A stretch of DNA of 64,000 bases from Sphaerisporangium corydalis (GTDB taxonomy: Bacteria; Actinomycetota; Actinomycetes; Streptosporangiales; Streptosporangiaceae). A program made the position numbers and the translations under genes. The notes under the pieces were generated by a model. It made no database searches, was not told where the DNA came from, and was given only the letters and a program-made list of their open reading frames with translations. The stretch spans positions 1-64,000 of the forward strand of contig NZ_JANZYP010000059.1 of NCBI RefSeq assembly GCF_025506355.1, read 5' to 3'. This document shows positions 4,190 to 46,155 of this stretch, piece after piece (position 1 is the stretch's first letter; every line of letters begins with the position of its first letter).

Positions 4190-4517
4190 GCGCCCACAAC
4201 CTCCGCGACCCGGTTCTGGAACCCGATCTGTTGGTATCGGGCCTCCCGAAGGAGCAGCGGCCCGTCGAGAGGATCCGTCGACGCACACGGCACGCTGCCT
4301 CTGCTCTCCTGCGGGTCCAGCAACCGCCCCTCTTCATCGAGGGGCCGGATATAGGTCTTGACCAGGGCGCATTCTCTCCGTAGCGCCGGTGTGAAACCGG
4401 ATGGGCACGGGTCGTAGCGATCGCCGGTCTGTGACCGATAAGTTCATGGATCCTCCAGTTCCGTCGTGGCCTGTGCGGGTCATGGGTGTGGATGGTGGCG
4501 GTGGTGGGAGTTGCCAG
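4190..4517. other. Intergenic stretch with a possible minus-strand coding scrap
   Basis: No complete gene is seen. On the minus strand about 4190-4395 can be read continuously as protein-like sequence including LVKTYIRPLDEEGRLLDP and GPLLLREARYQQIGFQNRV, which looks compositionally like real coding but matches no family I recognise. It has no start and no clear end and runs antisense into the GAF-ANTAR stop. It may be another remnant typical of this island, or chance. Confidence 0.25.
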
Positions 4518-7500
4518 ATGAGCGGACCGGATGAGGGTGAGCCGTCCTTGCCGCCGGGTGACCGGTCCGGGGCGGCTACGGAGGTGCCGATCGCCGCTGC
4601 TCAGGACGGGGTGCGTCAGTGGATCCGCCATGCCGCCGCGGTGTCGGTGCGGGGCGCGGCCTGGGGGAGCCCGCGAGCGATGCTGGTGGGGTTGTGCGTC
4701 AGCGCGCTGGTCCCGATCGCGCTGGCCGAGCCGGGGCTGCCGGCGGTGGCGGCCGGGTTGACCGTGGTGGGTTCGGTGGGGGGCAATGTGCTGGCCGGCC
4801 TCATCAGCGAGTCCTTGGCCGCCGCCCGGGCCCGTATGCGCTTCCCTGCGGACCCGGGGTCGACCGATCCGGACGCCGAGCCTGGTCCCGATGCCGGGGC
4901 CGGGGGCGGAGGCGGGCGGGATGTGGGTGGCGCGGTTTTTGCCGAACGGGTGGGTGAGGAGATCGCCGCCCGGATTGAGAGGGTCTTGGCGGCCCAGGAT
5001 GAGCAGGCCGAGGTGCTGGCCGGCGTGCTGGTGTTGGTACTGGAGCGGATCGAGGCGACCGCTGTGGTGGTCGGTGAGATCGTGGCCGGCGGGCAGCAGC
5101 AGTTGTTGCGGGAGCTGATGGCCGCTTTCGCCGGCCTTGGGGGGCAGGTGGCCGGGGTCGGCCGGCTGCTGCGTGGCCTGGACGGATCGGTGCTGCAGGT
5201 TCAGCAGACCTTGTCGCGGCAGGACGCCGAGCACCGCTTCGACCGCTCCCAGCGGCAGTGGGTGATCGCGTTGCTGCTGGAGTTCCACGAGCAGCTGGCC
5301 GAGGTGGCCCTGCGGTTGCCCGGCGCTTGGACGCCGGTGGATCCCGGCACAGCGGATCCCGGGACGGCGGAGCCGGTGAGGCGGTCGGCGGCTTGGGCGG
5401 GGCGGTGCCCGTATCAGGGGCTGGCCCCGTTCGGGCGAGCTCAGGCGGCGGTGTTCTACGGCCGGGGCCAGGCCATCGCCCGGTTGCTGAGCATGGTGGC
5501 CGTCCCCGCCGCCGGCGGGCCGATCATCGTCACCGGGGCGTCGGGGGCCGGGAAGTCCTCGCTGCTGCAGGCCGGGCTGTTGCCCCAGTTGAGCGCGGCG
5601 GCCCCCGGCGCGCCGGGGGCGGCTTATGGCACGGCCGGTTGGCCGCAGATCTCCTTCACCCCGGGGGCGCGGCCGTTGCAGGAGCTGGCGGTGCAGTTGG
5701 CGGTGCGGTGCAACGCCGACCCTGACCAGGTGCTGGCCGAGTTGCGTGCCGATCCCGCTCAGGCGGTGGTGCGGCGGGCCCGGCAGGTCCTGGCAGCCGA
5801 ACGGATTCGCCGCGCCCCCGGCAAGGGGGCGCCGGGGAGAGCAGATCAAGGGCCGCTGCGGCTGGTCGTGGTCGTTGACCAGTTCGAGGAACTGTTCACC
5901 CTGGCCACCACGGATCACACGGGTGAGCGCACGGGCCGGCCCGCCGATCTGGGGGAGCGGGGGGACGGGGGAGAGGCTGAGGCGTTCGTCGCCGCGCTGG
6001 AGGCGCTCGCCGCCCACTCCGGCGCTGAGGCTCAGCTGTCGGCCGGGCCGGGTGGGGGTCTGGCGGAGCGGGGGTTCACCGGGCAGGTGCTGCGGTCCGC
6101 GGCGGTGGTCGTGGTGATCGCGGTCCGTGGTGACTTCATCGACCGGTGCGCCGCCTACCCGGTGTTGGCCCGCGCGCTGGAGGAGCGGGCGTTTGTGCTC
6201 GGTCCGATGAGTGAGCAGGAACTGCGCCGGGCGATCACCGGGCCGGCGGCGGCCGCCGGGCTGGCCGTAGAGGACGGTTTGGCCGAGCAGATCGTCAGTG
6301 ACCTGGCCGGTCATCTGCGCGCCGGAGGCGCCGGGCCGGGTGGGTCCGGAGGTCCTGCAGGGTCGGCGGCGGGGGCGTTGCCGCTGCTGTCGATGGCGGC
6401 GGCCCGCACCTGGGACGAGCGCGAAGGCGGCCGGCTCACCCACGCCGCCTACGATCGGGCGGGTGGGGTCGCCTCCGCGGTCACCGACACCGCCGAGGAG
6501 GCCTACACCCGGCTGGATGGCCGGCAGCGGCAGACCGCGCAGCGTGTCCTGCTGGCCTTGACGATCACCGGAGCCGACGGACAGGTCAGCCGCCGGCGTG
6601 TCCCGCTGACCGAACTGAACCAACTGACCGAACCGGCCGGGGTGGATCGATCCGCCTCCGGCGACCGCGACCACGCCGCCCAGGTGCACCGCGTGGTGGA
6701 GGCGTTCACTGGTGCCCGTCTCATGACCACCATGGCATCGGCCGGGTCGAGCGGCCGGTCCCCGGAGCCGGGATGGGGGTCGGGGTCGGCGACCGGATCG
6801 GCTGAGCCGGGCTCCCGCACAGGGTCCATTCCTGTGAGCCCGCCCATCGGGTCGCTGCCGCCAGGGGAAGGCTTCTCGGCGGCCGGGCCGCCCGCGACGG
6901 TCGAACTCGCCCATGATGTGCTGCTGGCCGCCTGGCCCCGGCTGCGGTCGTGGCTTGCCGCTGATGAGGCGGACCGGATCCTGCACGGCCGGATTGTCCA
7001 TGACGTGGCCGAATGGAGCCGGCGGGGCCGCAATGCCTCGTTCCTGTATCGGGGATCGCGCCTGGAAGACGCACAGAACGCGGCTGCACACTGGCGAGCC
7101 GATCCCGGCCGCCATCCGGGCTTGGGTCTGTCCGATGCCGCCGAGGCCTTCCTGGCCGCCGGTGCTCGCGCCGCCACCGGGACCCGGCGCCGCTGGCAGG
7201 CAGCCGCCAGCGTGCTGGCCGGGCTGCTGGTGGTCGCGGTCGTCACCGCGGTGATGGCGGTTCGTTTCGGCCGCGACGCCGACCAGCAGCGCGCGGGCGC
7301 GCTCAGCCGCAGCGCCCAGCTCGTGTCCCGGCAGGCAGCCGCCTACAGCCAAGACATTCCCGACGACCCCGCCACCTCGGCACGATTGGCCGCTGCCGCC
7401 TGGTCGATCTCCCGAACCGACGAAGCCGCCGCAAGCATGGCCTCCCTGCTCAGCCGACCCCAACGCGCCGTCCTGACCGGCCACACCGGCGCGGTCACGT

Positions 7501-8999
7501 CGGTGGCGTTCTCCCAAGACAGGACCCGCCTGGCCTCCGCCGGCGTCGACGAGACGGTGCGGATCTGGGATGCGGCCACGGGCAAGCAGATCGGCGCCCC
7601 ACTGACCGGCCACACCGGCGTGGTGTACTCGGTGGCGTTCTCCCCCGACGGGACCCGCTTGGCCAGCGGCAGCGACGACGGGACGGTGCGGATCTGGGAT
7701 CCGCGCACCGGCACCCCGGTCGGCAAACCTCTGACCGGCCACACCCACCGGGTGTTGTCGGTGGCGTTCTCCCCAGACGGCACCCGCTTGGCCAGCGGCA
7801 GCGACGACGGGACGGTGCGGATCTGGGATCCGCGCTCCGGCACCCTGGTCGGCAACCCCCTGACCGGCCACACCGAAGCGGTGCGGTCTGTGGCCTTCTC
7901 CCCGGCCGGGACCCGCCTGGCTTCGGCCGGCAACGACGGGACGGTGCGGATCTGGGATCCACGCTCCGGCACCCCGATCGGCAACCCCCTGACCGACCAC
8001 ACCGGCGCGGTGGTGTCGGTGGCGTTCTCCCCCGACGGCACCCGCCTGGCCAGCGGTAGCGGCGGCGACGGCAAGGGCGGCGACGGGACCGTGCGAATCT
8101 GGGATCCGCGCACCGGCACCCCGATCGGCAACCCCCTGACCGGCCACACCGACTGGGCGTTGTCGGTGGCGTTCTCCCCCGACGGGACCCGCCTGGCCTT
8201 CGCCGGCAACGACGGGACGGTGCGGATCTGGGATCCACGCTCCGGCACCCCGATCGGCAACTCCCTGACCGGCCACACCCTCGCGGTGTGGTCGGTGGCG
8301 TTCTCCCCCGACGGGACCCGTTTGGCCTCGGCCGGCGATGACGGGACGGTGCGGATCTGGGATCCGCGCTCCGGCACGCCGATCGGCAACCCCCTGACCG
8401 GCCACACCGACGGGGTGCGGTCGGTGGCGTTCTCCCCCGACGGGACCCGCCTGGCCAGCGGCAGTGTCGACAAGACGGTGCGGATCTGGGATCCCCGCAC
8501 CGGGACCCCGATCGGCAACCCCCTGACTGACACCGGCGCGGTGTGGTCGGTGGCGTTCTCCCCCGACGGGACCCGCCTGGCCAGCGGCAGCGACGGGACG
8601 GTGCGGATCTGGGATCCACGCTCCGGCACCCCGGTCGGCAACCCCCTGACCGGCCACACCCTCGCGGTGGTGTCGGTGGCGTTCTCCCCCGACGGGACCC
8701 GCCTGGCCTCCGCCAGCGATGACGGGACGGTGCGGATCTGGGATCCACGCTCCGGCACCCCGATCGGCAACCCCCTGACCGGCCACACCGGCGCGGTGAC
8801 GTCGGTGGCGTTCTCCCCCGACGGGACCCGCCTGGCCAGCGGCAGCGACGACGAGACGGTGCGGATCTGGGACGTCGCCCTTCCACGTGATCTTCTTGGC
8901 GCCGTGTGCGCCATCGCGGGCCGGGGATTAAGCCCGCAGGAATGGCGGCCGCGCATCCCGGATGCGCCCTACCGGCCCACCTGCCCGGCCTCCCGGTAG
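4518..8999 (+). CDS. STAND NTPase (nSTAND1-type) with transmembrane segments and eleven WD40 repeats
   Basis: About 1493 residues. An N-terminal segment with a long hydrophobic stretch (about 54-98) precedes the STAND ATPase: Walker A in VTGASGAGKSS near residue 340 and Walker B in VVVVDQFEELF near 450. A predicted single membrane helix (VLAGLLVVAVVTAVMAV) lies near 900. Eleven WD40 repeats of 43 residues fill about 985-1453, followed by the usual short tail (LSPQEW). ATG 4518 is preferred over an upstream ATG at 4401 because GGGAG precedes it. STAND proteins are ligand-triggered switches; in bacteria and fungi many act in self/non-self recognition or phage defence, so that is the plausible role. 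The repeats are nearly identical at DNA level, which is exceptional next to the diverged second STAND gene nearby. Confidence 0.9.
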   Translation: MSGPDEGEPSLPPGDRSGAATEVPIAAAQDGVRQWIRHAAAVSVRGAAWGSPRAMLVGLCVSALVPIALAEPGLPAVAAGLTVVGSVGGNVLAGLISESLAAARARMRFPADPGSTDPDAEPGPDAGAGGGGGRDVGGAVFAERVGEEIAARIERVLAAQDEQAEVLAGVLVLVLERIEATAVVVGEIVAGGQQQLLRELMAAFAGLGGQVAGVGRLLRGLDGSVLQVQQTLSRQDAEHRFDRSQRQWVIALLLEFHEQLAEVALRLPGAWTPVDPGTADPGTAEPVRRSAAWAGRCPYQGLAPFGRAQAAVFYGRGQAIARLLSMVAVPAAGGPIIVTGASGAGKSSLLQAGLLPQLSAAAPGAPGAAYGTAGWPQISFTPGARPLQELAVQLAVRCNADPDQVLAELRADPAQAVVRRARQVLAAERIRRAPGKGAPGRADQGPLRLVVVVDQFEELFTLATTDHTGERTGRPADLGERGDGGEAEAFVAALEALAAHSGAEAQLSAGPGGGLAERGFTGQVLRSAAVVVVIAVRGDFIDRCAAYPVLARALEERAFVLGPMSEQELRRAITGPAAAAGLAVEDGLAEQIVSDLAGHLRAGGAGPGGSGGPAGSAAGALPLLSMAAARTWDEREGGRLTHAAYDRAGGVASAVTDTAEEAYTRLDGRQRQTAQRVLLALTITGADGQVSRRRVPLTELNQLTEPAGVDRSASGDRDHAAQVHRVVEAFTGARLMTTMASAGSSGRSPEPGWGSGSATGSAEPGSRTGSIPVSPPIGSLPPGEGFSAAGPPATVELAHDVLLAAWPRLRSWLAADEADRILHGRIVHDVAEWSRRGRNASFLYRGSRLEDAQNAAAHWRADPGRHPGLGLSDAAEAFLAAGARAATGTRRRWQAAASVLAGLLVVAVVTAVMAVRFGRDADQQRAGALSRSAQLVSRQAAAYSQDIPDDPATSARLAAAAWSISRTDEAAASMASLLSRPQRAVLTGHTGAVTSVAFSQDRTRLASAGVDETVRIWDAATGKQIGAPLTGHTGVVYSVAFSPDGTRLASGSDDGTVRIWDPRTGTPVGKPLTGHTHRVLSVAFSPDGTRLASGSDDGTVRIWDPRSGTLVGNPLTGHTEAVRSVAFSPAGTRLASAGNDGTVRIWDPRSGTPIGNPLTDHTGAVVSVAFSPDGTRLASGSGGDGKGGDGTVRIWDPRTGTPIGNPLTGHTDWALSVAFSPDGTRLAFAGNDGTVRIWDPRSGTPIGNSLTGHTLAVWSVAFSPDGTRLASAGDDGTVRIWDPRSGTPIGNPLTGHTDGVRSVAFSPDGTRLASGSVDKTVRIWDPRTGTPIGNPLTDTGAVWSVAFSPDGTRLASGSDGTVRIWDPRSGTPVGNPLTGHTLAVVSVAFSPDGTRLASASDDGTVRIWDPRSGTPIGNPLTGHTGAVTSVAFSPDGTRLASGSDDETVRIWDVALPRDLLGAVCAIAGRGLSPQEWRPRIPDAPYRPTCPASR
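7473..8877 (+). repeat. Eleven tandem 129-bp WD40-coding repeats
   Basis: Each unit starts CTGACCGGCCACACC and encodes LTGHT-xxVx-SVAFSPDGTRLAS-xxxDGTVRIWDP. Unit 5 has an insertion of about six residues (GGDGKG) and unit 9 lacks two or three codons (LTDTGAVW, SGSDGT). Differences concentrate at the residues just after GHT and just after LAS, while the frame is nearly invariant. Confidence 0.95.
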
Positions 9000-9884: not shown

Positions 9885-12800
9885 TCAGCAGACCTTCAGA
9901 TAACCCTGCCTGGCAGGCAGATATCTGGGCCACTCGTCCTTGGTCAGCGAGCGCCCCGCGGCCGCGCAGACCGACGCGAACGGGTCGGCGACCGGCCGTA
10001 CGTCCCACAGCCTGATCCTGCCCATGGCGTCGCCGGTGGCCAGCGTGCTGCCGTCACGGCTGAATGTCACCCCTCTGACCGGCTCGGGGTGCACCAGGGG
10101 CGGCCCGATCTGGAGCTGGGTAGCGACGTCCCAGAGCCGGACCGTCCGATCCTCTCCCGACGTGGCGAGAACCTTGCCGTCCGGGCTGAAGGCGACGTCG
10201 TTGAGGTAGGGTGCCTGGTGACCCAGCAGGGTTCGGCCCATCTGCCGCCGGGCGGCCACGTCCCACAGCCGCGCCGTGCGATCGTCGGCGACCGTGGCGA
10301 GGATGGCGCCGTCCGGGCTGAAGGCCGCGCTCTTCCCCCAGTTGTGGTGCCCGCTGACGGGCGGCCCGAGCGGCCGGCGGGTGGCGGTCGACCAGAAAAG
10401 AATCATGTTGTCGGTCGCGATGGTGGCGAGCGTCTTCCCATCCGGGCTGTACGCCACGGCCTTCACCCACCCCTTGTGACCGGCGTACGGCGGGCCGGTC
10501 TCGTCAAGGGTTCGCGTGTCCCAGGTGTGAACGAGTCCGTCGAATCCGCCCGTCACCAGCTTCCGCCCGTCGGGGCTGAAGGCGACGGAGGCGATCACGG
10601 CCCCGTCCGCGGCCAGTGGCCCACCGATCTGCGCGCCGCTGGCGAGGTCCCACAGCCGGGCCTCTCCGTGTCCGTTGCCGGGGGCCCACCCGCTTTCCAG
10701 CGTCCATTGGCGTTGCCCCGAGCCGGCGGCCAGGAGCCGGCCGTCGTCGCTGATGTCCACACCGTTGATCTCCCAGGGCAGCTCGTACGGCGCCCGGATC
10801 GGCTTCCGGGTGGCCGCGTCCCACAGGCCGACCCTGCCGTCGTATCCGGCGCTGACCAGCGTGGCGCCGTCCGGCGTGAACGCCAGGTCGTTCACCGGCA
10901 CCTCACCGTCGCCGAAGGCGGTGCCGAGCTGCCGTCGCACGGAGATGTCCCAGATCCGGGTCACCTGGTCGGCGCCGGCCGTGGCCAGAGTCCGCCCGTC
11001 AGGGCCGAACGCCACGCCGAAGACCTGGTCGACGTGCCCGTTGAGGGGCTGGCCGACTTCGAAGCCCGTGCCGACGTCCCACAGGCGGGCCTGCTTGTCG
11101 AGGCTTCCGGTCGCCAGGAGGGTGCCGTCCGGGCTGAAGGCCACGGCGTTGACCTCTTGACTGTGCCCGCGGAGTCGCGCGACCTCGCCGCGGGTGCCGA
11201 CGTTCCACAGGCGGGCGGTGCCGTCGTGATGGGCGGTGGCCAGGAGCGTGCCGTCCGGGCTGAAGGCCACGGCCTTCACGTGGTCGTTGGACGCGATGGG
11301 AATGCGGGCGATGTCGTGGTGGGTGGCCGCGTCCCACAGGTGGACGCCGTCGGAGCCGCCCGCCGCCAGGACCTTGCCATCGCCGCTGAAGGCGACGGCG
11401 GAGAACACCTGGCCCTCGCTGACGAGCGAGGCGAGTTCGCGCCGGTCGGCGACCCCCCAAAGCCGGACCGCGCCGTCGTCGGCGGCCGTGGCCAGGGTCG
11501 CGCCGTCGGCGCTCAGCGCGACCGATTCGATCGTGGCCGATCGTACGCCGATCGGTGGGCCGAGCTCTCTGCCGTTCGCCACCTCCCACAACCGGGCGGT
11601 GCCGTCCTCGCTCCCGGTCGCCAGGGTCGTGCCGTTCCGGCTGAACACCACTGAGGTCACGCTCTTGCCGTGACCGGACAGGGCGCGGCCGCGCTGTTCG
11701 TAGGTGCCGGTGTCCCACAACCGGACCGTGCCGTCCTGGCTTGCCGTGGCCAGCGTCCGGCCGTCCGGGGAGTAGGCGACGGCGCGCACCCAGTACGTGT
11801 GCCCGACCAGGACGTGCCGCGCCGGGTCGGCGAGCGCGTTCAGCATGGCCTGCCTCGCCTCGTCGGTCGGCGCGATCCGCCAGGCGGTGGCGGCCAGACG
11901 CAGCGCGGTGGCCGGGTCGATCTCGGAGGCGTTCCTGCTCTGCCCCGCCACCTGCCCCGACAGGGCGATCGCCGCCTGCGTCCTGGCGTCGCCGAAGAGG
12001 ATGACCGCCGCGATCGCGGCGATCACCGAGATCACCAGCGATACGGTAAGAATCGTCGTGGTCGTGCGGCGCCGCCGGACGACCCGCGCCGCCGCCCGCT
12101 CCGCCGACGCGAGGAACTCGGCCGGCACGCCCCCGACCCGCTCCAACGCTAGGGCGTTTGCCAGGCGGGTACCCGAGTACAAATATGCGGGGTCCCGGCC
12201 GCTGCGCTCCCAGTCGAGGGCGTCGGACATGAGCCGCTGGCGGATCAGCAGGTCCGCGCGGTCCTCCTCCAGCCAGATGCGCAGCCGTGGCCAGCCCCGG
12301 ATGAGGGCCTCGTGAGTGATCTGCGCGTTCTGGTCGTCGACGGTCAGCAGCCTCGCCTGGACGAGATGGCTGAGCGCCCGCCGGGACGGTTCGCCTTCGG
12401 GCCCGCCGGGGATCGCCTCGGACACCGGCAGCCGCCGCGCGGTGTCCGGAGCGTCGGTGCCCAAATGGACCAGCCGCGTCAGCAGCCCGCGGGCGGCGCG
12501 CCGCGCGTCCAGGTCCAGCCCGTCGACCGCCGCGTCGGCGCTCTGCGCCAGCGATCGGGTGATGCCGCCGGTGGCCCGGTAGCCCGCGAAGGTCAGCGTG
12601 CCGTCCTGCCGGTGGTGCCACGTCTGGAGCAGCGCGTGCGACAGCAGCGGGAGCGCCCCGACCGCCTCGGCGTGGTCGCGGTCGCTGCGCAGGTCCTCCA
12701 GCAGCAGGTCGGCCAGCCCGTCCTGCAGGGTGAGCCCGGCGACTTTGGCCGGCCCTTCGATGACCTCCAGCAGGCGGCGCCGCTCCATCGGGACCACGAC

Positions 12801-13691
12801 CACCGGCCGTTCGAGCGCCGGCACCAGTTCGGGCCAGGCCGCGCACTGTCCGAAGAAGTCGGCGCGCACCCCGAGCACGACCGCCCGAGCGCCCCCGTCC
12901 TCCGCCAGCCCCGCCAGTACGTCGAGTAAGGCGCGCGGCGATCCGTCCCCCGCGCTGAAGACCTCCTCGAACTGGTCCACGACGACCACGCGCCCGCGCC
13001 ACGCGCGCCGGGCGGCCTCCGCGAGCGGCTCGGCGTCCGCCGCCCCCAGCAGACGTCGCAAAGTCGCGCCCGGTTCGGTGCCCGGCTCCATGATCACCAC
13101 CTCGCGGGTTCCGGTACGGGCGAGCGCCGGCACCAGCCCGGCTCGCAGCAGCGAGGACTTCCCCGCGCCCGAGGCCCCGGTGACCACGAGCAGTCCGCCG
13201 CCGCCGACCCGGTCGAGCAGGTTCCCGACGAGCTCCCCCCGCCCGAAGAAGTACCGAGCGTCCGCAGCGCCGTAGGGTTCCAGCCCCCGGTACGGCGGCA
13301 CCGCCTCCGCCCGTCCGGCCGTACGTCCGGAGCCGCGTCTCGAGACGCCTTTGGAGGCGGCGCGCGCCAGGTCCCTCTCCTCGCGCAGAGCCAGGTACGC
13401 CGCGTCCCAGGCTCCCAGGTCAACCAGACCGGGCGGCAGCGGGCGTCCGGACTGGGCCGCCACCCGCAGGCAGGTGTCGACGAAGACCTCGAAGTTGACC
13501 CGCTCCGGCACCGTGTCACTGGTGGGGTTGGTCATGTCGCCGACCGTGCTTCTGGCCAGCCGCGTCGGTTCCTCACCGGGCCGCCGCCGCGGCGTCTGCC
13601 CGCTGGCGATCATCAGCCCGCGCACCGAGAGCCCCGCGGCCTTCCTCAGGTCGAGCAGCCGACCGGCGAAGCGCGCTGTGGCGTTCTCCAC
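9885..13691 (-). CDS. HTH-STAND NTPase (nSTAND1-type) with about fourteen WD40 repeats
   Basis: About 1268 residues. The N-terminus (1-110) resembles an XRE-like helix-turn-helix domain (FAGRLLDLRKAAGLSVRGL). The STAND ATPase has Walker A GASGAGKSS at about 173-181 and Walker B VVVVDQFEEVF at about 236-246. One predicted membrane helix (TVSLVISVIAAIAAVILF) lies near 550-570. About fourteen WD40 blades follow, enough for two seven-bladed propellers, ending LTKDEWPRYLP. Unlike the first STAND gene its repeats are strongly diverged, as expected of an old propeller. GTG 13691 is preferred to the adjacent TTG 13694. It faces the first STAND gene and lies between two 46-bp direct repeats. Such proteins are NLR-like switches; a defence or signalling role is inferred from the family. 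Confidence 0.9.
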   Translation of the reverse strand: MENATARFAGRLLDLRKAAGLSVRGLMIASGQTPRRRPGEEPTRLARSTVGDMTNPTSDTVPERVNFEVFVDTCLRVAAQSGRPLPPGLVDLGAWDAAYLALREERDLARAASKGVSRRGSGRTAGRAEAVPPYRGLEPYGAADARYFFGRGELVGNLLDRVGGGGLLVVTGASGAGKSSLLRAGLVPALARTGTREVVIMEPGTEPGATLRRLLGAADAEPLAEAARRAWRGRVVVVDQFEEVFSAGDGSPRALLDVLAGLAEDGGARAVVLGVRADFFGQCAAWPELVPALERPVVVVPMERRRLLEVIEGPAKVAGLTLQDGLADLLLEDLRSDRDHAEAVGALPLLSHALLQTWHHRQDGTLTFAGYRATGGITRSLAQSADAAVDGLDLDARRAARGLLTRLVHLGTDAPDTARRLPVSEAIPGGPEGEPSRRALSHLVQARLLTVDDQNAQITHEALIRGWPRLRIWLEEDRADLLIRQRLMSDALDWERSGRDPAYLYSGTRLANALALERVGGVPAEFLASAERAAARVVRRRRTTTTILTVSLVISVIAAIAAVILFGDARTQAAIALSGQVAGQSRNASEIDPATALRLAATAWRIAPTDEARQAMLNALADPARHVLVGHTYWVRAVAYSPDGRTLATASQDGTVRLWDTGTYEQRGRALSGHGKSVTSVVFSRNGTTLATGSEDGTARLWEVANGRELGPPIGVRSATIESVALSADGATLATAADDGAVRLWGVADRRELASLVSEGQVFSAVAFSGDGKVLAAGGSDGVHLWDAATHHDIARIPIASNDHVKAVAFSPDGTLLATAHHDGTARLWNVGTRGEVARLRGHSQEVNAVAFSPDGTLLATGSLDKQARLWDVGTGFEVGQPLNGHVDQVFGVAFGPDGRTLATAGADQVTRIWDISVRRQLGTAFGDGEVPVNDLAFTPDGATLVSAGYDGRVGLWDAATRKPIRAPYELPWEINGVDISDDGRLLAAGSGQRQWTLESGWAPGNGHGEARLWDLASGAQIGGPLAADGAVIASVAFSPDGRKLVTGGFDGLVHTWDTRTLDETGPPYAGHKGWVKAVAYSPDGKTLATIATDNMILFWSTATRRPLGPPVSGHHNWGKSAAFSPDGAILATVADDRTARLWDVAARRQMGRTLLGHQAPYLNDVAFSPDGKVLATSGEDRTVRLWDVATQLQIGPPLVHPEPVRGVTFSRDGSTLATGDAMGRIRLWDVRPVADPFASVCAAAGRSLTKDEWPRYLPARQGYLKVC

Positions 13692-13917
13692 CAACGAGTC
13701 TCCGTTCAGCGCCGCTCATAGCAGGTGTCCGAAGCCGCCGGACACGGAACACCCTGCCAAGCGTAGGTCGTGAGCAGCCGATTGCGGAGGGTTTCCCCGC
13801 ATGTGTCCGAGCGGGGTCGCCGGACACCGAGCCGCACTGCGACCGTCGTGGTCACCGAGCTCCCCGAGCCCGGTTTCGCAGAGAGGTTCTCCCTCTCCAC
13901 CCTCGAAGGAGCCACCA

Positions 13918-17592: not shown

Positions 17593-17828
17593 TCCCGCTC
17601 CCGTCCGGCCCTGACCTGTTCGAGCTGTCACGGCCGGTGCGGAGCGTGCCGTCGATCTCCTCGTCCCCGGAGTGACCGGTACGTACCCGCGGGTGACACG
17701 TCATTTCCTAGTCCCGCGATGACCTCGGGCTTTCCACTGTGCGGCTGTGCGGCCTCTCACGTGGCATCGCCCTGCGCTTTTCGCGGTCTGTCAGGAACTC
17801 CCCCCAAAGAACCAAGGAGCGATCTGTT

Positions 17829-20051
17829 ATGCGAACGTGGGCGAAGGGCTCCGCTCCCGCAGCTCTGCTTGCGGTGGCCGTCATGACTCTCGGTAGTGGT
17901 ACGGCGGTCGCCGACACCTCCGGCACCGGCTCGGTCGGTGGCGGAAACCAGGTCAACCTGCCCATCACCATCCCCGTCGACATCAGCGGCAACGCCGTCG
18001 GCGTGCTCGGCGGCTCGTCGGCCTCGTCCCAGGGCGGTTCCTCCGTCCAGGGCGGTCCGGGCGGCAACGGCATCCAGGGCAGCACCTCCGGACGTGGCAG
18101 CGTGCTGGGCGGCAACCAGGTGAACGCGCCGATCACCGCTCCTATCAACGCGTGCGGCAACGCCGTCTCCCTGGTCGGGCGGTCCGACGCGGGCTGCCAG
18201 GGCGGGGCGACGGTCAGAGGCGGCGGCGGAGGTGGCGCGGGCGGCAACCGGACCGACGGGCGGCACAGCGTCCTCGGCGGCAACCAGGTGGTCGCGCCGA
18301 TCACCGCCCCGGTCAACCTCTGTGGCAACGCCATCGCGGTCTTCGGCGAGTCGACCGCGGGGTGCAGGGGCGGCGCGTCCGTGCAGGGCGGCGGCGGGCG
18401 CGGCGCGGGCGGCAACCGTACGTCGGGGAACTCCTCCGTGCTGGGCGGCAACCAGGTGGTCGCGCCGATCACCGCGCCGATCAACATCTGCGGTAACTCC
18501 GTCGCGCTCATCGGCGGGGCGTTCTCCGGGTGCCGTGGCGGAGCCAGCGTCAGCGGTGGCGGTGGCAACGGTGGCGGTGGCGGGAACGGCGGTCCCGGTG
18601 GCGGCGGGGGCAACGGTGGCCCTGGCGGCAACGGTGGTCCTGGCGGGAATGGCGGTCCCGGCGGGAACGGTGGTCCCGGGGGCGGCGGGAACGGTCACCA
18701 GGGAGGTCATGGGGGTCAGGGCGGCCACGGCCACGGAGGCGACGGTGGCTATCGCGGCGACCGCGATCACGGTGGGCCTGGCGGCAGCCGTGACCATGGC
18801 GGCGACGGGGATCACGGCCGACCGGGCGCTCCCGGTGGACCGGGTACTCCGGGTGGACCGGGTACCCCTGGTGGCCCTGGTGGCCCCGGTGGGCCTGGTG
18901 GGCCTGGGGGTAACGGTGGGCCTGGGGGTAACGGCGATCACTCGTTCGGGGCGGGTGGGAACGACACCGACGGGCGGTTCAGCGTCCTCGGTGGCAACCA
19001 GATCGTGGCGCCGATCACGGCGCCGATCAACGTCTGCGGTAACTCCGTGGGCAACGGCGCGGCGGGCTGCGAGGGCGGCATCATCGCCCCGCCGGCCGGT
19101 CACGGCAGTGGCGCGGGTGGCAACCAGACGTCCGGGCGGTACAGCGTCCTGGGTGGTAACCAGATCGTGGCGCCGATCACGGCGCCGATCAACGTCTGCG
19201 GCAACGCCGTCGCCGTGATCGGCCAGGCCTTCGCGGGCTGCCGCGGCGGGGCCTCGGTCAAGGGCGGCGGAGCGGGTCGTGGCGCCGGGGGCAACCAGAC
19301 CGACGGGCGGTACAGCGTCCTGGGTGGTAACCAGATCGTGGCGCCGATCACGGCGCCGATCAACGTCTGCGGCAACGCCGTCGCCGTGCTGGGTGACGCC
19401 GCCGCGGGCTGCCTGGGCGGAGCGAGCGTGGGCGGCCCGGCCTGGCCCGGCGGCCAGGGCGGTCCGGGTGGCCAGGGTGGTCCCGGCGGCCCGGGTGGCC
19501 CTGGTGCTCCGGGTGCTCCGGGCGGGCCTGGTGGACCGGCTGGACCGGGTGGGCCTGGTGGACCGGCCGGCCCCGGTGGGGGGCAGTCCGGGTACGGGCA
19601 CCCGGAGCGCCGGGTCGCGGGCGGCAATATGGCGGCTCCCGGTCTGCTGGCGGACATGCCGCTCACTCCCGTGGGCCCGGCTCGGAAGGCGGGGGAAGTG
19701 ACCCACCAGTCGGGTCAGGCGCCGTCGGTCAGTGGCGTCCAGAAGCCGGCCGGCCTTCCTGACCTGCCCGCCGCGCCCAGCACCGCCGGGGGCGCGCAGC
19801 AGCCGGCTGCGGTCGGCAGCCCGCTCGGGCAGGTCGGGAAGATCGTCGCGGGCACCCCGGCCGGGGCGCTCGTGGGCGGTTCGGCGGGCGAACTGCCGGT
19901 CAGCCCGATGGGTCTGATGAGCGCCGAGCAGCCGCTGGGCGTCACGGGCATGAACTCCGGCTCGCTGGTGGCCCTGTTCCTCGGCGCCCTGTTCACCGCC
20001 TCGGCGACCGTGTTCGCCGGCACCCGCCGCCTCCGTCTCCGGCGGAGGTGA
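17829..20051 (+). CDS. Giant chaplin-like surface protein with collagen-like Gly-rich blocks
   Basis: 740 residues from ATG 17829 (AAGGAG upstream). A signal peptide (ALLAVAVMTLGSGTAVA) is followed by seven chaplin-type repeats, GGNQxxAPITAPINxCGN ... AGCxGG. The first lacks the two cysteines; repeats 5-7 are almost identical. A long GGxGGP/GPGGPGT block separates repeats 4 and 5, and a second follows repeat 7. The C-terminus has LGVTG, then a hydrophobic helix (LVALFLGALFTASATVF) and an Arg-rich tail (RRLRLRRR), i.e. a cell-wall sorting layout with a variant of the LAxTG motif. Chaplins are amphipathic proteins that coat aerial hyphae. Ordinary long chaplins carry two such domains, so seven plus collagen-like spacers is unusual. 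Confidence 0.85.
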   Translation: MRTWAKGSAPAALLAVAVMTLGSGTAVADTSGTGSVGGGNQVNLPITIPVDISGNAVGVLGGSSASSQGGSSVQGGPGGNGIQGSTSGRGSVLGGNQVNAPITAPINACGNAVSLVGRSDAGCQGGATVRGGGGGGAGGNRTDGRHSVLGGNQVVAPITAPVNLCGNAIAVFGESTAGCRGGASVQGGGGRGAGGNRTSGNSSVLGGNQVVAPITAPINICGNSVALIGGAFSGCRGGASVSGGGGNGGGGGNGGPGGGGGNGGPGGNGGPGGNGGPGGNGGPGGGGNGHQGGHGGQGGHGHGGDGGYRGDRDHGGPGGSRDHGGDGDHGRPGAPGGPGTPGGPGTPGGPGGPGGPGGPGGNGGPGGNGDHSFGAGGNDTDGRFSVLGGNQIVAPITAPINVCGNSVGNGAAGCEGGIIAPPAGHGSGAGGNQTSGRYSVLGGNQIVAPITAPINVCGNAVAVIGQAFAGCRGGASVKGGGAGRGAGGNQTDGRYSVLGGNQIVAPITAPINVCGNAVAVLGDAAAGCLGGASVGGPAWPGGQGGPGGQGGPGGPGGPGAPGAPGGPGGPAGPGGPGGPAGPGGGQSGYGHPERRVAGGNMAAPGLLADMPLTPVGPARKAGEVTHQSGQAPSVSGVQKPAGLPDLPAAPSTAGGAQQPAAVGSPLGQVGKIVAGTPAGALVGGSAGELPVSPMGLMSAEQPLGVTGMNSGSLVALFLGALFTASATVFAGTRRLRLRRR

Positions 20052-20265
20052 GCCGATCAGAGAGCGGCCACCCGCCGACCGGCCCGCCGTAGGGCGACCG
20101 GGTTCGCCGCCGCCTTCGTCTTCGGCGGAGGTGAGGCGACCAGAGAGCGGCCACCTGCGGACCGGCCCGCCGTAAGGCGAACCGTGTTCGCAGGCGCCCG
20201 CCGTCTCTGGCGGAGGTGAGGCGACCAGAGACCGGCCACCTGCGGACCGGCCCGCTGTAAGTGGC
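20041..20265. repeat. Three imperfect 83-86 bp tandem repeats over the chaplin gene end
   Basis: Copies begin at 20041, 20124 and about 20209 with GGCGGAGGTGAG and share CAGAGA-CGGCCACC and GACCGGCCCGC. The first includes the chaplin stop codon. The remaining bases to 20413 hold no gene that I can support. Confidence 0.85.
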
Positions 20266-42536: not shown

Positions 42537-44990
42537 ATGACGGCGCTTGATGGGGCCTCCGCGGCGGGCCGGATCCTCCGTACGTGGCAGGACCCGGCCC
42601 TCCCCGTGGCCGACCGGGTCGAGGCCCTCCTTGAGGCCATGACCCTGGAGGAGAAGGTCGGCCAGCTCGGCAGCCGCTGGCTCGGCAACGACATGGGGGC
42701 CGAGGAGGGCGCGGAGACCGAGGAGGCCGAAGGCACCGCGAACGTGGCCCCGATGCAGGACGTCTTCGCGGCCTCGGGCCGGGTGCCCTTCGAGGAGGCG
42801 ATTCGCCACGGCCTCGGCCACCTCACGCGGGTGTTCGGCAGCGTTCCGCTGACCGCGGCGGAGGGCGCCGCGGAGGTGGTACGGCTCCAGTCCGAGGTGG
42901 TGAAGCACTCCCGGCTCGGCATCCCGGCGCTGGTCCACGAAGAGTGCCTGACCGGGTTCACCACCTACGGCGCGACCGTCTACCCGGCGGCCATCGCCTG
43001 GGGCGCGACGTTCGACCCGGACCTGGTCGAGCGGATGGCCGCCGCCATCGGGCGCGACATGCGCGCCGTGGGCGTCCACCAGGGCCTGTCGCCGGTGCTG
43101 GACGTCGTGCGCGACTACCGCTGGGGCCGGGTCGAGGAGACCATGGGCGAGGACCCGTACCTCGTCGCGATGCTCGGCGCGGCCTACGTGCGCGGCCTGG
43201 AGGGCGCCGGCGTCATCGCCACGCTCAAGCACTTCGCCGGCTACTCCGCCTCACGGGCGGCACGCAACCACGGCCCGGTGCCGATGGGCCGGCGCGAGCT
43301 CATGGACATGATCCTTCCGACCTTCGAGACCGCCATCGTCGAGGGCGGCGCGCGTTCGGTCATGAACTCCTACGCCGACGTGGACGGCGTCCCCGCCGGG
43401 GCCGACGCGTGGCTGCTGACCGACCTGCTGCGCGACGAGTGGGGGTTCACCGGCACGGTGGTGTCGGACTACTGGGCGATCCCGTTCCTCGCGACGACCC
43501 ACCAGATCGCCGCGGACGCCTACGAGGCCGGGGTGCAGGCCCTCACCGCGGGCATCGACGTCGAACTGCCCGACACGCTCGGCTTCGGCCAGCACCTCAC
43601 CGAGCGCGTACGCCGGGGCGAGCTGGCGGAGTCCCTGATCGACCGGGCCGCCCGGCGCCTGCTCACCCAGAAGGTGCAACTCGGGTTGCTGGACGCGGAC
43701 TGGACCCCGGAGGCTTCGGTGGCCGGGGCGCGTGCTGTCGACTTCGACTCGCCGGCCAACCGGGAACTCGCCCGGGAACTGGCCGAACGCTCGATCGTGC
43801 TCCTCGACGCGGGCACCGCGCTGCCCCTGCTCGGCGAGGGGCGCACGGAGCCGCGCCGGGTGGCCGTGGTCGGCCCCTGCGCCGACGACCCGCGCACGTT
43901 CATGGGCTGCTACGCCTTCCCCAACCACGTGCTGCCCCGCCATCCCGAACTCGGGCTCGGCGTGGCCGCGCCCAGCCTGCTCGACGCGCTGCGTGACGAA
44001 CTGCCCGGCGCCGAACTGGTCCACCAGCCCGGCTGCGACGTGCGGAGCACCGACCGCTCCGGTTTCGCCGCCGCGGTCCAGGCGGCACGCGAGGCCGACG
44101 TGTGCGTGGCCGTCGTCGGCGACCGGGCCGGGATGTTCGGGCTGGGCACCTCAGGAGAGGGCTGCGACGCCGACGACCTGCGGCTGCCCGGCGTACAGGA
44201 GGACCTCCTGGCCGAGCTGACCGCCACCGGCACACCGGTCGTGGTCGTCGTCGTCTCCGGCCGCCCCTACGCGCTGGGCACCGTGTCCGAGACGGCCGCC
44301 GCGCTCGTCCAGGCGTTCATGCCCGGCGAAGAGGGCGGGGCCGCCATCGCCGGCGTCCTGTCCGGCCGGGTGCAGCCCAGCGGGAAGCTGCCGGTGCAGA
44401 TCCCGCGCGGCCATGGCGGGCAGCCGGGCACCTACCTGCAGCCGCCGCTCGGCGCCAACAGCCACGGCATCAGCAATCTCGACCCGACCCCGCTGTTCCC
44501 CTTCGGGCACGGCACCTCCTACACCACCTTCGCCATCTCCGACCTGCGGATCAGCGACGCCGAGGTACCCACCGACGGCGAGTTCACCGTGTCGGTGCGC
44601 GTACGCAACACCGGCGGCCGGGCGGGCGAGGAGGTCGTCCAGCTCTTCCTGCACGACGTGGTCGCCCAGGTCACCCGGCCGGTGCTGCAGCTCACCGGCT
44701 TCACCCGGGTCCGGCTGGAACCCGGCGCGAGCGCCCTCGCGACCTTCACGGTGCCCGCCGACCGCACCGCGTTCACCGGGCGCGACCTGAGACGCGTCGT
44801 CGAACCCGGGGACATCGAGGTGTTCGTGGGCGCATCGGCGGCCGACCTGCCCTGCCAGGGCCGGATACGATTGACCGGCACACCGCGCCACGTCGGCCCG
44901 GGGCGACGGCTGGTCACCCGCGTCCACGTGCAGACGACGCCGGACTCTTCCGCCGTACAGCAGGGAGAAACAGATGCCGGCCAGTCCTAA
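42537..44990 (+). CDS. Glycoside hydrolase family 3 (beta-glucosidase/beta-xylosidase)
   Basis: 817 residues from ATG 42537 (GAGGAGA upstream). The N-terminal TIM barrel (about 20-360) has the nucleophile Asp near residue 311 in GTVVSDYWAI, and the substrate-binding LKHF (GVIATLKHFAGYSASR). The alpha/beta sandwich domain follows (VGDRAGMFGLGTSGEGCDAD), then a fibronectin-III-like C-terminal domain from about 660. No signal peptide, so it acts in the cytosol on imported oligosaccharides. It overlaps the LacI start by 17 bases and diverges from the sugar ABC operon: a self-contained uptake, hydrolysis and control unit. Confidence 0.92.
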   Translation: MTALDGASAAGRILRTWQDPALPVADRVEALLEAMTLEEKVGQLGSRWLGNDMGAEEGAETEEAEGTANVAPMQDVFAASGRVPFEEAIRHGLGHLTRVFGSVPLTAAEGAAEVVRLQSEVVKHSRLGIPALVHEECLTGFTTYGATVYPAAIAWGATFDPDLVERMAAAIGRDMRAVGVHQGLSPVLDVVRDYRWGRVEETMGEDPYLVAMLGAAYVRGLEGAGVIATLKHFAGYSASRAARNHGPVPMGRRELMDMILPTFETAIVEGGARSVMNSYADVDGVPAGADAWLLTDLLRDEWGFTGTVVSDYWAIPFLATTHQIAADAYEAGVQALTAGIDVELPDTLGFGQHLTERVRRGELAESLIDRAARRLLTQKVQLGLLDADWTPEASVAGARAVDFDSPANRELARELAERSIVLLDAGTALPLLGEGRTEPRRVAVVGPCADDPRTFMGCYAFPNHVLPRHPELGLGVAAPSLLDALRDELPGAELVHQPGCDVRSTDRSGFAAAVQAAREADVCVAVVGDRAGMFGLGTSGEGCDADDLRLPGVQEDLLAELTATGTPVVVVVVSGRPYALGTVSETAAALVQAFMPGEEGGAAIAGVLSGRVQPSGKLPVQIPRGHGGQPGTYLQPPLGANSHGISNLDPTPLFPFGHGTSYTTFAISDLRISDAEVPTDGEFTVSVRVRNTGGRAGEEVVQLFLHDVVAQVTRPVLQLTGFTRVRLEPGASALATFTVPADRTAFTGRDLRRVVEPGDIEVFVGASAADLPCQGRIRLTGTPRHVGPGRRLVTRVHVQTTPDSSAVQQGETDAGQS

Positions 44991-45153
44991 CCGGGCCACG
45001 CCGGACCCCTCCGCCGGAACAGACACCGCCGGTCCTGAACGGGCCAGGCCGGTCTCCTCCGTCACACAGCGGGGAGGAACAGACGCAGACAGTCCTGGAC
45101 GAGCCACACCCAACCCTTCCGCTGGAACAGACACCGCCGGTCCCAGACGGGCC
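44938..45153 (+). repeat. 108-bp tandem duplication across the GH3/LacI junction
   Basis: Alternating 60- and 48-bp sub-units occur in the order 60-48-60-48, each ending in GGGCC or GAGCC. It is best read as one 108-bp unit duplicated and since diverged. The first copy holds the GH3 stop and the LacI start; the equivalent of that ATG in the second copy is ACG. Confidence 0.8.
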
Positions 45154-46155
45154 ACGCTGGCCACGGTCGCGGCTTCCGCGGGCGTCTCTGTCGCGACCGT
45201 GTCGAAGGTGCTCAACGGCCGGGGCGACGTCTCGCCGGTGACCCGCTCCCTCGTCGAGTCGTTGCTGGAGCACCACGACTACGTCGCGCCGCCGCAGCGC
45301 CGCAGGGGCGGCGACACGGCCGTGCCGGACACCATCGAGGTGGAGCTCGACGCCGACCTCAACGCGTACTCGACCGAGATCGTCCAGGGCGCCGTCCGGG
45401 CCGGCGCCGAGGCCGACGCGGCGATCGTTGTGAGCATCCGGAGCAACGCCGACCGCGGCGGACCCTGGGCGCGCGGCCTGGTCGCCGCCGGGCGCCGGGC
45501 CGTGATCGCCATCACCAGCGAGCTGACCGCCGCGCAACTCACCGCCCTGTCCCGGGTACGGCTGCCGCTGGTCGTGATCGACCCGCTGAACCTGCCACAG
45601 ACCAGAGGCGTCACCAGCGTCGGCTCGACGAACTTCGCCGGAGGCCTGGCCGCCACGCAACACCTGCTCACGCTCGGCCACCGCCGCATCGCCTACCTCG
45701 GCGGCCCGGCCACCGCCGCCTGCAACCAGGCCCGCCTGCACGGCTACCGCGCCGCCATGGAGGCCGCGGGCGCCCCGGTCCCCCCGGCCTACGTACGCTC
45801 AGGGCACTTCCACTACCAGGAGGGCGTAAGGGGCGGCACGGCCCTGTTCGACCTCCCTGACGCCCCCACGGCTATCTTCACCGGCTGCGACGACATCGCG
45901 CTCGGCGTGCTGGAGGCGGCCAGGGCGCGCGGTCTGCGCGTGCCCGAGGACCTCAGCATCGTCGGCTTCGACGACACCCAGGTCGCCCGCATGTCCTCAC
46001 CCCCACTGACCACCGTCCGCCAGCCCCTACGCGAGATGGGCGGCGTAGCCGTCCGCACGGCCCTGCGCCTGGCAGCGGGCGAACGAATCGACTCCCACCA
46101 CGTAGAACTAGCCACCGAACTAATCCTCCGCGCCTCCACCGCCCCCAAACCCTAA
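44974..46155 (+). CDS. LacI family transcriptional regulator
   Basis: 393 residues. The helix-turn-helix and hinge begin only at about residue 59 (RATLATVAASAGVSVATVSK), because a 55-60 residue extension made of two similar peptide blocks (RATPDPSAGTDTAGP, RATPNPSAGTDTAGP) precedes it. The ligand-binding domain (about 125-390) is complete: TGCDDIALGVLEAARARGLR, then SIVGFDDTQVA. ATG 44974 has GGGAGA upstream and overlaps the GH3 stop. It most likely represses the GH3 gene and the sugar ABC operon until a sugar binds. Confidence 0.92.
   Translation: MPASPNRATPDPSAGTDTAGPERARPVSSVTQRGGTDADSPGRATPNPSAGTDTAGPRRATLATVAASAGVSVATVSKVLNGRGDVSPVTRSLVESLLEHHDYVAPPQRRRGGDTAVPDTIEVELDADLNAYSTEIVQGAVRAGAEADAAIVVSIRSNADRGGPWARGLVAAGRRAVIAITSELTAAQLTALSRVRLPLVVIDPLNLPQTRGVTSVGSTNFAGGLAATQHLLTLGHRRIAYLGGPATAACNQARLHGYRAAMEAAGAPVPPAYVRSGHFHYQEGVRGGTALFDLPDAPTAIFTGCDDIALGVLEAARARGLRVPEDLSIVGFDDTQVARMSSPPLTTVRQPLREMGGVAVRTALRLAAGERIDSHHVELATELILRASTAPKP

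Follow-up and report, generated by a model that had tools for sequence, protein, structure and literature searches.

The gene described here, from the soil actinobacterium Sphaerisporangium corydalis, encodes an nSTAND1 NTPase followed by eleven similar WD40 units, in which concerted evolution was found together with amino-acid change concentrated at the codons reported to be positively selected in fungal NWD genes, and the order of its variable residues was not significantly preserved in relatives at distances over which other gene pairs mostly preserve theirs. We put at about one in two the probability that the product is a membrane-anchored STAND receptor, with its array homogenised, its loop residues diversified by selection and a ligand switching an N-terminal effect.

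Gene architecture and neighbourhood

The gene is located in the window, i.e. the whole stretch of 64,000 nt that was analysed (positions 1 to 64,000 of NZ_JANZYP010000059.1, here contig C118), which belongs to a draft assembly of 9.48 Mb in 162 contigs. Comparison with Pfam identified an nSTAND1 domain (PF20703; 332.5 bits against a curated cut-off of 27.1, profile positions 1-378 of 379) and WD40 (PF00400; 450.1 bits, in 11 stretches of the protein). The motif GASGAGKSS within the former is the P-loop or Walker A motif. In total, six full-length nSTAND1 domains were identified in the genome, and a paralogue of similar plan lies immediately downstream in convergent orientation (Table 1).

Table 1. 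Features of the repeat gene and of its convergent neighbour, in window coordinates
Feature	Position	Strand	Basis
Whole gene, 1532 aa: N-terminal helical module, nSTAND1, predicted membrane segment, eleven WD40 units, tail	4401..8999	+	ATG-started open frame; PF20703, PF00400
N-terminal module, aa 1-336, helical, hydrophobic stretch at about aa 91-146; candidate effector/adaptor	4401..5408	+	18-sequence alignment; AF2
nSTAND1 NTPase domain, aa 337-879	5409..7037	+	PF20703
P-loop (Walker A), GASGAGKSS	5535..5561	+	translation
RRR basic cluster, N-terminal side of membrane segment	7185..7193	+	translation; charge
Predicted membrane segment ASVLAGLLVVAVVTAVMAV, between NTPase and repeats	7206..7262	+	Kyte-Doolittle
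WD40 unit 1	7473..7601	+	
WD40 unit 2	7602..7730	+	
WD40 unit 3	7731..7859	+	
WD40 unit 4	7860..7988	+	
WD40 unit 5, six-residue insertion in b-c loop	7989..8135	+	
WD40 unit 6	8136..8264	+	
WD40 unit 7	8265..8393	+	
WD40 unit 8	8394..8522	+	
WD40 unit 9, two residues short	8523..8645	+	
WD40 unit 10	8646..8774	+	
WD40 unit 11, running into tail, conserved part to 8873	8775..8891	+	
C-terminal tail, two cysteines (codons 8907-8909, 8982-8984)	8874..8996	+	translation; alignment
Convergent paralogue: nSTAND1, predicted membrane segment, 14 diverged WD40 units, two-cysteine tail	9885..13694	-	

The N-terminal module, which may be an effector or an adaptor, was shown to be conserved in an alignment of 18 sequences, and residues 1-344 of the protein had no Pfam match at E<=1. 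Its AF2 model is all-helical and of low confidence (pLDDT 61.7, pTM 0.32), too low for a structure search. Relatives of the module are patchily distributed, being found in 49 of 341 genomes and 17 of 68 genera of the family, and the same module is also joined to other sensors, as in L125 (5814-9413), with NACHT/nSTAND1-like and HEAT matches, and L123 (5493-8897), with a weak AAA_16 match.

Neighbouring ORFs (n=25, within the first 48 kb of the window) that gave a family match were ordinary chromosomal genes, i.e. LysR, STAS, GAF/ANTAR, DyP peroxidase, imelysin, topoisomerase I, chaplin, M20 peptidase, thymidylate kinase-MFS, hydrolase, transporter, GH3 and LacI. No flanking ORF was common to more than 3 of 16 loci in broad searches (bit score >70), and PADLOC, applied to the two STAND genes, reported only HEAT-ARM_XIII, with its best stretch inside the WD40 array. 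The role against phages or competitors that had been proposed from the sequence alone is thus not supported, given these neighbours, the missing shared partner and propellers that are predicted to lie outside the membrane (see below).

Repeats of another kind were also observed in the window. The chaplin match corresponds to a 770-aa ORF (17739-20051, + strand) in which the chaplin family (ChpA-C, PF03777) was matched seven times; the matches lie in tandem units of 168/171 bp and are spaced by Gly/Pro-rich 9-27-bp repeat arrays, which makes the ORF an unusually long, repeat-built chaplin. Further tandem repeats are located beside or between genes at 20024-20261 (83-bp, 2.8 copies) and 44939-45154 (108-bp, 2 copies).

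Concerted evolution of eleven WD40 units

The eleven WD40 repeats reported in the sequence-only reading were recovered in one open frame (7473-8891) with the last conserved residue ending at 8873, as were the length changes in units 5 and 9: eight of the eleven units are exactly 129 bp long, six additional codons bring unit 5 to 147 bp, and two missing codons reduce unit 9 to 123 bp. The array is by far the strongest tandem array of the window, with TRF scores of 1800 and 1873 against 556 for the next best. Across the 33 codons common to all eleven units, pairwise identity averages 0.874 for DNA (0.788-0.939) and 0.826 for protein (0.727-0.968), so that the earlier wording, 'almost identical', was somewhat strong; over 43 columns of ten units, mean protein identity is 0.803 and the minimum 0.628. 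The mean of 0.826 places the array among the Highly-Repetitive WD40 proteins, for which the lower limit of internal identity is 0.7 at the protein level (PMC5587647).

Non-synonymous variation was found in 13 of the 33 columns (3, 6-9, 15-17, 22-25 and 27), chiefly at 6, 7, 9 and 22-27, and synonymous variation in 18. In addition to the two short patches described earlier, the linker, columns 34-43, represents a milder third variable stretch (pN 0.146, pS 0.188; units 1-10). Each of the eleven units has its own combination of residues at the variable positions. A three-unit higher-order repeat, suggested by a 405-bp TRF period, was considered and rejected, as identity by unit distance ranges from 0.863 to 0.904 with no clear peak at three (0.887).

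Concerted evolution, as had been proposed, is supported by a mean pS of 0.13 between units within the array, compared with 0.20-0.51 against units of nine other genes. The four-gamete test was failed by 15 of 36 pairs of two-state sites, indicating that parts of units recombined or changed repeatedly. Since none of the 31-mers of the array occurs elsewhere in the window and no close copy exists elsewhere in the genome, where the best other WD40 match is 66 % identical, homogenisation is taken to be intragenic. Exchange with the array of the convergent neighbour was ruled out by a pS of 0.51 between the two arrays, along with the absence of shared 31-mers, and the other WD40 genes of the genome offered nothing close enough for exchange. 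A search for plasmid copies of the non-repeat part of the gene returned only short pieces covering at most 5 % of the query.

Amino-acid change at the fungal codons

The fungal numbering was transferred to the unit columns by matching its two conserved codons, with V at position 8 and D at position 26, and by the fungal WD40 consensus. In fungal NWD genes, codons 7, 9, 25 and 27 of the WD40 unit are reported to be positively selected, as pairs around the conserved codons 8 and 26 (PMC1805685), and these four were picked as test codons from that source beforehand, blind to the variability of the present array. They exhibited a pN of 0.443 and a pS of 0.161, compared with 0.075 and 0.143, respectively, for the remaining codons, and random sets of four columns matched this pN in 0.14 % of draws (permutation P=0.0014). 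A seven-position set used in later papers gave a pN of 0.379 and a pS of 0.127 (P=0.0002). When neutral evolution was simulated with third positions biased in composition as they are in the gene itself, the ratio was ~1.2-1.3; none of 150 runs attained 0.443 at a pS near 0.11-0.16, and 2 % did so at approximately doubled divergence.

This pattern is not restricted to the window gene. In all 17 genes compared (relatives and paralogues, the convergent neighbour among them; 9 of the 11 window units and 5 of the 9 units of L122 being used), pN at codons 7, 9, 25 and 27 was above that of random column sets (P<0.0001 to 0.021); the pN/pS ratio at these codons was, however, less than 1 in L128 (0.79) and L133 (0.75), two of the relatives. 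Judged by the strands of the AF2 model, columns 6-7 lie ahead of strand a and columns 25-28 between strands b and c, which places them in the d-a and b-c loops and hence on a single propeller face, this face being assigned from strand order rather than from coordinates. The fungal codons are located on the propeller likewise (PMC1805685).

The array thus displays the fungal HNWD pattern of amino-acid change at codons 7, 9, 25 and 27 together with concerted evolution, and its substitutions do not show the even, silent spread along the unit that would have spoken against the sequence-only reading. The diversifying selection on a binding face suggested in that reading was upheld only in part: change is concentrated at the codons that form the binding face in fungi, but variation from blade to blade proves nothing by itself, as the following comparison of orthologues illustrates.

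Locked and apparently re-written arrays in relatives

The three Mycobacterium orthologues L019, L020 and L028 (upstream identity 89-95 %) are identical at columns 6, 7, 9, 25 and 27 in all 14 units, although each unit differs by 1-19 nucleotides. High pN between blades can therefore coexist with full conservation between species, and blade-to-blade variation in one gene alone is not evidence of continued change; the informative test is between orthologues, a correction to the reasoning of the sequence-only reading. The Mycobacterium genes are what would be expected of a fixed receptor or scaffold, whose array was recently amplified and whose blades are fitted to one constant ligand, with no diversifying selection, and hotspot diversity has also been taken as adaptation to partners (PMC5587647). 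For the window gene we consider such a history rather unlikely, as its group shares neither residues nor their order, even at 71-76 % upstream identity.

Comparison of the window gene with L120 (71 % upstream identity) and L122 (72 %), using all 11 window units against 14 or 9 units and with two duplicates removed from 48 rows, revealed no significant conservation of the order of variable residues (z=1.2 and 1.1, respectively). Conversely, control pairs were shown to preserve it (z=5.9-9.7 overall), including L013/L031 (73 %; z=6.6), L033/L031 (74 %; z=5.9) and L152/L153 (67 %; z=6.9), the last being a pair from the N-module family of the window gene that also keeps the variable residues. The survey was extended to 71 pairs, not independent of each other, whose upstream identity was 60 % or higher and whose members had a minimum of 8 units and 100 upstream residues, conservation being taken as P<0.05. 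Among the 29 pairs at 71-95 % upstream identity, order was conserved in none of the five within the window's group (window gene, L120, L122, L010, L012, L130 and L151; 71-76 %) and in 23 of the 24 others. Below 70 %, 4 of 42 pairs conserved it, inside and outside this group, so that the window comparison, made at 71-72 %, approaches the limit of what this control can show.

The orthologue comparison points to re-writing in the group of the window gene without proving it. A single number and order of repeats shared by the relatives, which would have contradicted the earlier claim of rapid re-shuffling, was not observed: counts differ, and order is not conserved against L120 and L122. Locked arrays of this general kind were found in Mycobacterium and in Rhodococcus/Kibdelosporangium.

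Number of units and reliability of the assembly

The commonest unit count among relatives is 14 (2×7), which is what two seven-bladed propellers would need, and it was observed in the close relatives L120, L128, L130, L133, L011 and L010. Other counts are 9 (L122), 4 (L121) and 2 (L131), and the array of L014 is split 6+3+5 over frames. For the tally, four duplicate loci (L009, L071, L011 and L017) were excluded, as was any array in which fewer than three units could be used, and two pieces of the split L014 array as well as the contig-cut L135 were taken as arrays. Fourteen units were counted in only 3 of 17 arrays with a mutual DNA identity of at least 80 %, compared with 21 of 30 at 70-80 %. 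Each of the two identity bands below 70 % comprised 35 arrays, of which 18 and 17, respectively, had 14 units, but the profile misses more units there. Homogeneous arrays thus often depart from 14, meaning either that they are in flux or that drafts are misassembled.

These counts lend some weight to the view, doubtful in our judgement, that the window array is decaying or misassembled, i.e. that recombination removed three units from a former array of 14, or that units were merged in the draft. Consistent with this, the coding sequences of L014, L121, L124, L127, L131 and L132 are broken by frames or stops, representing gene decay or draft errors, and AF2 did not yield a regular seven-blade unit from the eleven blades. 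The latter model (pLDDT 83.7, pTM 0.77) deviates by an rmsd of 6-8 Å from single seven- or eight-bladed propellers when the whole array is spanned; it is therefore not a normal propeller, and no blade count was drawn from it. Illumina assemblies of comparable fungal arrays are unreliable (PMC12222747), and the window count of 11, which comes from one 162-contig draft, may be wrong, so that the continued gain and loss of copies considered probable in the sequence-only reading is no more than a possibility. The count falls short of proven because the merging of an exact duplicate would be invisible in the assembly.

Several observations nonetheless argue against decay or misassembly. The frame is open across all 1532 aa, the longest exact repeat within the array is 61 bp, and no stray fragments of the array were found on other contigs of the genome. 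The same assembly preserved, on contig C42 (4073 bp), a 435-bp WD40 stretch (L135, 1890-2324) of exactly periodic 126-bp units with identical DNA. Two complete Streptomyces plasmids, NZ_CP109321.1 (L140) and NZ_CP054922.1 (L141), carry 12 and 13 units, respectively, in two apparently related genes (upstream identity 65 %), which shows that finished sequences, too, can depart from 14. Eleven highly conserved repeats, the number also seen in the window, are common in active fungal alleles and represent the most frequent number in functional het-d/het-e alleles (PMC12222747). As a separate observation, the two plasmid loci are NB-ARC/WD40 genes beside ParA/ParB genes, with array DNA identities of 0.88 and 0.75.

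Membrane topology

The hydrophobic segment between the NTPase and the repeats has a mean Kyte-Doolittle hydropathy of 2.62 over 19 residues, with net charges of +4 on its N flank and +1 on its C flank. Using hydropathy and charge only (hydropathy of 1.6 or higher, N flank of +3 or higher and exceeding the C flank in positive charge), such a segment was identified in 41 of 46 distinct proteins, including all 29 from actinobacteria, the two of the window among them. Exactly two tail cysteines are present in 28 of these 29 proteins (the exception, L127, is cut), both being invariant in all ten aligned relatives and perhaps forming a disulphide, and the array is without cysteine in 24 of 29. With the NTPase taken as cytoplasmic and a positive-inside segment preceding the array, the membrane segment and the two-cysteine tail suggest that the propellers are located outside the membrane.

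Alternatively, the protein may be a cytoplasmic sensor resembling WRAP or fungal NWD proteins, its segment being buried or inserting on activation and its propellers detecting invader or self proteins inside the cell. This general plan is common to WRAP (PMC9218822) and NWD (PMC1805685), and the same codons vary; however, the presence of the segment with its basic N flank in all 29 actinobacterial proteins, as well as a conserved cysteine pair in a C-terminal half that is otherwise mostly free of cysteine, renders a cytoplasmic location improbable in our view.

Comparison with known systems

The window gene belongs to a kind already described, namely highly repetitive WD40 proteins with hotspot diversity (PMC5587647, PMC9218822). 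The former source defines these proteins, half of which are bacterial, and reports internal identity above 0.7 with hotspot diversity, as seen here; it infers recent duplication and gave no match for 'concerted', whereas in the present analysis unit order and identity were compared between relatives with controls. According to PMC9218822, such propellers are prevalent in Actinobacteria, with rapid turnover, disrupted forms and a possible immune role; other highly repetitive β-propellers have also been described (PMC6805158).

Among fungi, the NWD/HNWD genes (het-d, het-e and het-r of Podospora anserina) similarly combine a STAND-type NTPase with alike WD40 units under concerted evolution and amino-acid change at the same codons 7, 9, 25 and 27 (PMC1805685 and PMC2873952; for the evolutionary pattern see also PMC4986451). 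The window gene differs from HNWD genes in being bacterial, in lacking HET, in carrying nSTAND1 rather than NACHT and in having a membrane segment ahead of the array; neither HET nor NACHT was found ahead of the array among the best 25 of 56 Pfam families listed, the NTPase match being nSTAND1. HET-E has three cryptic extra blades (PMC12222747), and none were seen in the window gene.

The best match by sequence among solved structures is 2ymu (E=6.6e-169), the Nostoc protein. WRAP of Nostoc punctiforme resembles the window protein in its STAND ATPase and C-terminal array of alike WD40 blades, but has 14 blades without synonymous mutations (PMC9218822), whereas the eleven window units exhibit silent as well as concentrated non-silent change and accordingly do not represent the WRAP type of 14 near-identical blades. 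PkwA of Thermomonospora curvata (solved chain 5yzv, E=5.6e-71) is likewise an actinobacterial protein with a WD40 domain, although it carries a kinase instead of an NTPase and a single propeller. Related conflict systems are covered in PMC7159879, PMC8195603 and PMC10907252, the latter two of which include nSTAND1, and no comparable case was found in their available portions. For the window's group, no precedent of the orthologue control or of the outside topology was found in the open-licence literature.

Proposed mechanism and implications

In the membrane-anchored receptor proposed here, the NTPase would be cytoplasmic, the hydrophobic segment would provide a single membrane crossing, leaving the propellers exposed outside together with the two-cysteine tail. 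Intragenic recombination would homogenise the units, keeping the framework and silent sites alike, and selection would diversify residues 6, 7, 9, 25 and 27 in the d-a and b-c loops of one face. Binding of a ligand to this variable face would then cause ATP-dependent oligomerisation and action via the helical N-terminal module. Surface, phage, competitor and self molecules would all be compatible as ligand. A broader proposal, which we regard as distinctly speculative, is that filamentous actinobacteria display WD40 double propellers outside the membrane, with target-facing residues re-written at the four fungal codons by recombination within the gene and by diversifying selection, as a convergent system that discriminates self or neighbour from stranger and is wired to an inner STAND switch.

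The separation of locked from apparently re-written arrays distinguishes blade residues that are fitted to a constant ligand from those that are still changing, a distinction that variation in one gene cannot draw, and the orthologue control makes the fungal-like pattern testable in bacteria. If the propellers are located outside, these proteins would qualify as candidates for a bacterial equivalent of surface recognition receptors.
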